Shown: piece after piece, positions 36,631-37,764 of the stretch
Position numbering within the stretch: the stretch's first letter is position 1
Layout: the number at the start of each line of letters is the position of its first letter
Assembly: GCA_031432545.1 (NCBI GenBank)
Contig: JAVKGX010000001.1
Span: forward strand, 62,001 to 126,000
Direction of reading: 5' to 3'
DNA: 64,000 nt
Source: Armatimonadota bacterium
Lineage (GTDB): Bacteria; Sysuimicrobiota; Sysuimicrobiia; Sysuimicrobiales; Sysuimicrobiaceae
The notes under the pieces: model-generated
What the model saw: only the letters and a program-made list of their open reading frames with translations
The model's database searches: none
What the model was told of the DNA's origin: nothing
Translations under genes and position numbers: made by a program

Positions 36631-37683
36631 CTACGCCACGACCTCGATCCATCCCTCCCCCGAATCCAGGACCTCACCCACCTCCGCGGCCACGCGGACG
36701 CCGCGCGCGGTCAGTGCCGCCCGCAACGCCCCGATACGCTCGGGCGCCACGGCGATGAGCAGACCCCCGCTTGTCTGCGCATCGCACAGGAGCACACGGG
36801 CTTCCTCGGACACGGCATCGCTCCAGCGCACGTAGCCTTCGGCCGCGGCACGGTTGCGCTGACTGCCGCCGGGCACCACGCCCGCCCGCGCCAGCACCCA
36901 CGCCTCCTCCAGAACCGGCACGGCCCCTACCCGCAGCCGTGCGGCCACCCGCGACGCCTCCGCCATCTCCCGCAGATGCCCGATCAGACCGTACCCGGTG
37001 ACGTCGGTGCACGCGTGCACGCCGACTGCGAGCATCGCGGCAACCGCGGGCCCATTGAGCTGGAGCATGACCTGCGTTGCGGATTCCACCGTCTCCTCCG
37101 ACGTGCGTCCGTACTTGATGCCGGTCGTGACGACGCCGAGTCCGATCGGCTTGGTGAGCACCAGGCGGTCGCCCGGTCGAGCGCCGGCGTTCGTCACGAT
37201 GCGATCGGCGGCTGTGAACCCGGTCACCGCATACCCGAACTTCACCTCGCGGTCTTCGATCGAGTGACCGCCGCCGATCACCACGCCCGCCTCGGTCATC
37301 TTGTCCGCACCGCCCCGTACGATCTGAACGACGACCTCCCGGGACAGGTGCGCCCGCGGGTACGCCAGGAAGTTCAGGGCGAGCGCCGGATCCGCTCCCA
37401 TGGCGTAGATGTCGGACAGGCTGTTGGCCGCAGCGATCGCCCCGTAGGCGTACGGGTCGTCCACGAAGGGGGTGAAGATGTCGAGGGTCTGTACCAGCAC
37501 CCGATCCCCGCTCACGCGGTAGACGGCCGCGTCGTCGCGTGTGCGCAGTCCGACCAGCGGCCGCGAATCGGCCGCGGCCGGCAGGTTGGCCAAGATGGCG
37601 GCCAGGTCCTCCGGACCCAGTTTCGACGCTCAGCCGGCGCAGTCCACCAGGCTGGTGAGCCGCACCCGCTCCCGCTCGGTCAC
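36631..37683 (-). CDS. selD: selenophosphate synthetase, itself a selenoprotein (in-frame UGA)
   Basis: 350 residues if the TGA at 37630-37632 is read as selenocysteine. It makes selenophosphate from selenide and ATP. From the GTG at 37683, preceded by AAGGAGG, the frame reads VRLTSLVDCAG-Sec-ASKLGPEDLA. This places Sec at position 18, where other SelD proteins have the catalytic Cys or Sec followed by Lys. The rest is standard: TRDDAAVYR, QTLDIFTPFVDDPYAYG, GGGHSIEDREVKFG and LCDAQTSGGLLIAV. An 8-bp hairpin follows the UGA. A start after the TGA would lose the active site, so read-through is the natural interpretation. Confidence 0.93.
37602..37632 (-). promoter_or_regulatory. candidate bacterial SECIS hairpin in selD
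   Basis: Nine bases after the UGA, CUGGGUCC and GGACCUGG pair into an 8-bp stem (two G-U pairs) with the loop GGA. The distance and size fit bacterial SECIS elements bound by SelB. Confidence 0.6.
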
Positions 37684-37764
37684 CGTCCGTTCCTCCTTTC
37701 GCAGACGCACTCCCATTGTACGGCCTGCTGCGGCGGCACGACCGGGGCGCCGTGGGCGGGAGGC

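Follow-up and report, generated by a model that had tools for sequence, protein, structure and literature searches.

The selD gene described here is very probably a vestige, a selenocysteine-type gene for selenide, water dikinase that is still open but has been stranded by a recent loss of selenocysteine (Sec) decoding. The gene lies in a window of 64,000 nucleotides, this being the whole stretch of DNA analyzed, from an Armatimonadota bacterium whose genome (G000; 2.19 Mb in 21 contigs, rated 100% complete) is the only one available for its species. The initial annotation of the window had read the gene as a selenoprotein gene and had concluded from it that the organism uses selenocysteine. 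The first part of that reading stood, with a Sec-type SelD, coding conservation upstream of the UGA, a plausible SECIS and Sec machinery in relatives, but Sec use by the organism is not supported and is probably a wrong conclusion for this genome.

The selD gene occupies positions 36631-37683 on the minus strand, would encode 350 residues if its UGA were read through, and is intact except for this in-frame TGA. The TGA (37630-37632, minus strand) is codon 18 and lies at the position of Cys17, the catalytic residue of E. coli SelD. Translation with TGA as U gives a single U at residue 18, within the motif VDCAGUASKLGPEDL, and alignment with E. coli SelD (PDB 3u0o) places U18 on Cys17 and K21 on Lys20, in agreement with the earlier assignment of the TGA to the catalytic Cys/Sec site in CAG-U-ASK. 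The translation scores 376.6 bits against the NCBIfam profile TIGR00476 (selD), for which the cut-off is 125 bits. By this profile score and by the positions of its catalytic Cys/Sec and Lys residues, the predicted product is a member of the SelD family. The proposed ribosome binding site and GTG start are likewise in place, the AGGAGG Shine-Dalgarno sequence lying at 37692-37697 (minus strand), 8 nt before the GTG. The expectation that a gene caller would start after the TGA and lose the active site was borne out by the mechanical ORF list, in which selD is called from TTG 37593; the resulting standard-caller ORF (36631-37593, minus strand, 320 aa) starts 3' of the TGA and is without the catalytic residue and the active-site Lys.

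A TGA at the catalytic codon, in the motif CAG-U-ASK, is present in all 30 SelD genes of the order that we inspected. In a search of 81 genomes, SelD genes from the same order, where they span this region, have exactly one in-frame TGA, the exception being a divergent second copy in G039. The SelD protein sequence is conserved within the order on both sides of the TGA, and upstream of it the inspected genes share a conserved stretch (e.g. VTERERVRLTSLVD), so the relatives do not show the stop without upstream coding conservation that had been named as evidence against a selenoprotein. Because the TGA and its flanking coding sequence are conserved in the order, the TGA is not a product of chance. 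Its presence in 30 of 30 inspected genes refutes the idea of a Cys-type selD in which the TGA arose by sequencing error or by simple nonsense mutation, and we give this explanation next to no credence. We propose that selD is a selenoprotein gene by descent and its UGA a Sec codon by descent. Judged from the locus order selD, LysR, archease, aminotransferase, serA, serS, which is common to the relative G003, selD sits in its ancestral place. TGA is also the commonest stop codon among the gene-like ORFs of the window, ending 24 of 38, and UGA is therefore the ordinary main stop. A codon-composition screen of the window, too strict to pick up selD itself, gave one ordinary gene end and no further UGA genes.

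The 8-bp hairpin reported nine bases past the TGA was located at 37602-37620 (minus strand). This SECIS-like element, CTGGGTCC-GGA-GGACCTGG, comprises 19 nt with an 8-bp stem that includes two G.U pairs; it begins nine nt 3' of the TGA, and its loop, in which GG comes first, starts 17 nt past the TGA. The 19 nt are identical in the four same-family SelD genes and nearly so in G008, and we regard the hairpin as a plausible candidate SECIS. Its stability is no greater than that of shuffled sequence (z 0.29), and stability was dropped as proof of a SECIS since it was not significant. SelD genes outside the window's family (L026-L049) mostly carry a second, longer hairpin about 27 nt past the TGA (e.g. 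GGCGCAG-GTC-CTGCGCC), which is replaced in the window's family.

The genes for Sec decoding are in a different state. G000 has one selA and one selB locus, both on contig C12 (40.5-43.6k) and both in pieces across different frames, and no second copy of either gene was found in the genome. In frameshift-aware alignments to the intact G003 proteins, selA shows two frameshifts (-1 and +1) and lacks 15 codons after VNNNAAAV in the enzyme core, and selB shows three frameshifts (-1, +2 and -1) and a gap of ~75 codons through domain II that takes in the GFGTVVTGT region. The two deletions, of 45 and ~220 bp, appear only in the G000 row of multiple alignments, which for selA comprised G000 with G001, G003 and G008 (rows G007, G038 and G034 did not align) and for selB comprised G000 with G001, G003, G007, G008, G014 and G036. 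G001 and G003, both of the same family, have full-length, in-frame selA and selB together with selC. The aligned frames of the G000 genes contain no internal premature stops, which points to recent decay, in genes so GC-rich that only ~2.3% of point mutations would give a stop. As far as its sequence tells, G000 lacks the intact selA and intact selB that mark a Sec-decoding organism. The genome search for selA, selB and selC, which the initial annotation had itself put forward as able to refute it, thus went largely against Sec use, with selA and selB reduced to frameshifted, internally deleted remnants and tRNA-Sec not in the assembly.

These observations bear on the possibility that SelD is a living Sec protein in an organism that still decodes Sec, with selA and selB broken by assembly error or belonging to a decayed strain variant and with tRNA-Sec in a gap. 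Such a reading would fit the intact selD, its typical codon-position constraint and the full sel set in relatives. Set against it are five frameshifts and the 45-bp and ~220-bp deletions in selA and selB, with controls that are essentially unbroken, and the lack of a second selA or selB. For the controls we compared sixteen genes of the same contigs and the window with G003 or G001 by one method, which counted three frameshift events in selA and four in selB, each count being one above that of the earlier alignment, which used a shorter reference protein. Thirteen of the fourteen other genes, selD included, had no frameshift event, and one event was counted in the aminotransferase gene AT2, the body of which is a single unbroken tblastn match. 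Since control genes in the same contigs are without frame breaks, the damage reflects gene decay and not noisy sequence, and damage that strikes only two neighboring genes of a single pathway and includes the two deletions does not look like random assembly error. The unbroken control genes and the long deletions thus led us to reject sequencing noise as an explanation for the state of selA and selB. A codon-position ratio was tried as a test of relaxed selection and set aside; the values for selA (0.46) and selB (0.51) fell within the control range of 0.24-0.55, so that it did not separate pseudogenes from fast genes.

The third component, selC, directly follows selB in G003, G001, G004 and G008, with tRNA-Sec ~40 bp past selB in G003 and G001. 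In G000 the pre-valS region is reached within ~180 bp of the selB remnant and no tRNA lies between the two. Rfam and selC pattern searches found no tRNA-Sec in the whole G000 assembly; the best Rfam tRNA-Sec match is a tRNA-Ser at 47 bits, compared with 61-84 bits for selC in relatives. This apparent tRNA-Sec, at C1:282371 (47.3 bits), was rejected because it is a tRNA-Ser with anticodon TGA. A 951-bp stretch of G003 containing selC gave only chance-size matches in G000. The G003 sequence 3' of selC matches the very end of G000 contig C7, and the contig ends within this post-selC sequence (locus L110 compared with L111), ~0.7 kb downstream of selC in G003. From these matches, the selC locus of G000 appears to be marked by either a rearrangement breakpoint or an assembly break. 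The syntenic place of selC in relatives is just beyond the end of C7, a point in favor of a living system, and selC might sit in an unassembled gap there; given the post-selC sequence at the contig end and this possible gap, the absence of selC from G000 is supported but falls short of proof. The damage to selA and selB is independent of the selC question. In the same region of C12 (locus L018:4250-4520, minus strand) a valS leader directly follows the selB remnant, with GGGTGGTACCGCGG and then a hairpin. We take this leader to resemble a T-box riboswitch; Rfam gave no family at its gathering score.

The case for a living system is further weakened by the absence of Sec-type formate dehydrogenase. 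Genome-wide, two selenoprotein families were searched, FdhA and SelD. G001, G003, G004 and G005 have a Sec-type FdhA (CNRTUHAPS, one TGA), which is absent from G000 and G002, and a search for a syntenic Fdh remnant in G000 (C1:130-250k) gave nothing convincing. With its Sec-FdhA missing and its decoding genes damaged, we consider it unlikely that G000 still makes a Sec-containing SelD. G000 does have a protein of the FdhF/YdeP family (TIGR01701, above cut-off), in which Cys occupies the Sec site (ARVCHAPS). Its gene, at G000:C1:413123-415800 (locus L236), is followed by a gene that we read from its sequence as fdhD-like and by a mobA-like gene. A second match at the same threshold is lacking in the four relatives with Sec-FdhA. 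Six further genomes (G012, G015, G018, G020, G026 and G036) have SelD with TGA, selB and tRNA-Sec and give no Sec-FdhA match; since these relatives are Sec-capable, other selenoproteins probably occur in the order and maintain the Sec trait there.

Selenophosphate can also serve uses other than Sec, and retention of selD for selenouridine or a selenium cofactor was considered. Neither mnmH/ybbB (TIGR03167) nor yqeB (TIGR03309) has a match in G000 or in 42 relatives; this explanation was rejected, and therefore no known pathway in G000 needs selenophosphate after loss of Sec decoding.

The selD gene itself has zero indels and a codon-position pattern of 0.36, like that of the controls. One explanation of this state is that Sec decoding was lost and selD was kept by Sec-independent readthrough of its UGA, with a near-cognate tRNA inserting another residue. 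An intact frame and a preserved hairpin beside broken machinery are what such readthrough would leave, and it has an insect precedent in SPS1-UGA of Hymenoptera (PMC4561486). The loss, however, is recent enough for intactness to arise by chance. With 5-7 disabling events in selA and selB together, a neutral selD would be expected to have taken ~1.6-2.2, and the probability of zero is ~0.11-0.21; the intact state of selD is therefore no proof of use and only weak evidence of it. In an alignment and tree made with trimmed ends, G000 SelD differs at four columns that do not vary among the other 29 SelDs, compared with at most one such change in any other genome. These changes hint at relaxed constraint on selD, although the G000 branch is also long. 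Given also that no known selenophosphate user is left and that the hairpin is not unusually stable, we think readthrough very unlikely.

We favor instead the stranding of selD by loss of its decoders. In the ancestors, SelA, SelB and tRNA-Sec would have allowed the UGA to be decoded as selenocysteine and SelD to be made, as apparently still happens in most genomes of the order. In the G000 lineage this machinery would then have decayed, as is seen directly in the frameshifts and deletions of selA and selB; selC is absent from the assembly and has probably been lost from the chromosome, and the Sec-type formate dehydrogenase appears to have gone as well. So far selD would have escaped disabling indels, with its UGA no longer decoded as Sec and most likely a plain stop in G000 today. 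Translation should halt after 17 residues, and any product from a downstream start, being without the catalytic Sec and the Lys, should be inactive.

The same family includes a genome (G002, 95% complete) with no SelD, tRNA-Sec, selA or Sec-FdhA and no clear selB, which seems to have lost the Sec trait entirely. One family thus offers a snapshot of bacterial trait loss, from the full set in G001 and G003, through decaying selA and selB with an open selD in G000, to no trace in G002. A UGA-containing selenoprotein gene is normally read as a sign of Sec use, but such a gene, even that for SelD, can outlast the machinery, and calls of the Sec trait should therefore rest on intact selB and selC.

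The elements of this case are already known separately, namely a UGA gene stranded by recent loss of Sec, orphan SelD, and a UGA-containing selenophosphate synthetase without Sec decoding; our search of the open-access literature turned up no bacterial SelD-UGA left stranded next to pseudogenes of selA and selB. Sec-containing SelD (TIGR00476) is a common bacterial selenoprotein family (PMC13188914). The present gene shares with it the family assignment, the UGA at the catalytic position, the RLTSLVDCAGUASK motif and the hairpin after the UGA; it differs in that G000 has no intact selA or selB and no detectable selC, leaving the UGA with no known decoder. The selenophosphate synthetase SPS1-UGA of Hymenoptera retains a UGA in insects that do not decode Sec (Mariotti et al. 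2015, PMC4561486). As there, the UGA in G000 is at the catalytic site and the host is without Sec decoding, but the insect case is argued to be readthrough from conservation across many species and here we have one genome and a recent loss. We see little prospect that G000 makes a functional SelD by readthrough of the catalytic-site UGA without selA, selB and selC, which would be a bacterial counterpart of the hymenopteran SPS1-UGA. Helicobacter pylori has lost the Sec trait but retains selA, which was selected for a different function (PMC4607533). There too a single sel gene outlasts the trait, but in G000 the gene that stays open is selD, whereas selA is a pseudogene. In Yersinia pestis CO92 and Mediaevalis, selB is frameshifted and formate dehydrogenase O retains a UGA that can no longer be decoded (Romero et al. 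2005, PMC1273633). The recent loss of Sec decoding, the stranded UGA selenoprotein gene and the presence of a Cys-type formate dehydrogenase are common to both systems. In Y. pestis, however, the damage is confined to selB, with selA, selC and selD still present, and the UGA is stranded in formate dehydrogenase O, whereas in G000 both selA and selB are broken, no selC was found and it is SelD itself that has been stranded. Finally, 'orphan SelD' organisms are known, for which an unknown use of selenium has been raised as possible (Haft and Self 2008, PMC2276186; ISME J 2016, PMC5029168). G000 resembles them in having SelD without intact genes for Sec, selenouridine or selenium cofactor, but in G000 what remains of selA and selB, along with the UGA that selD itself carries, points instead to loss of the trait.
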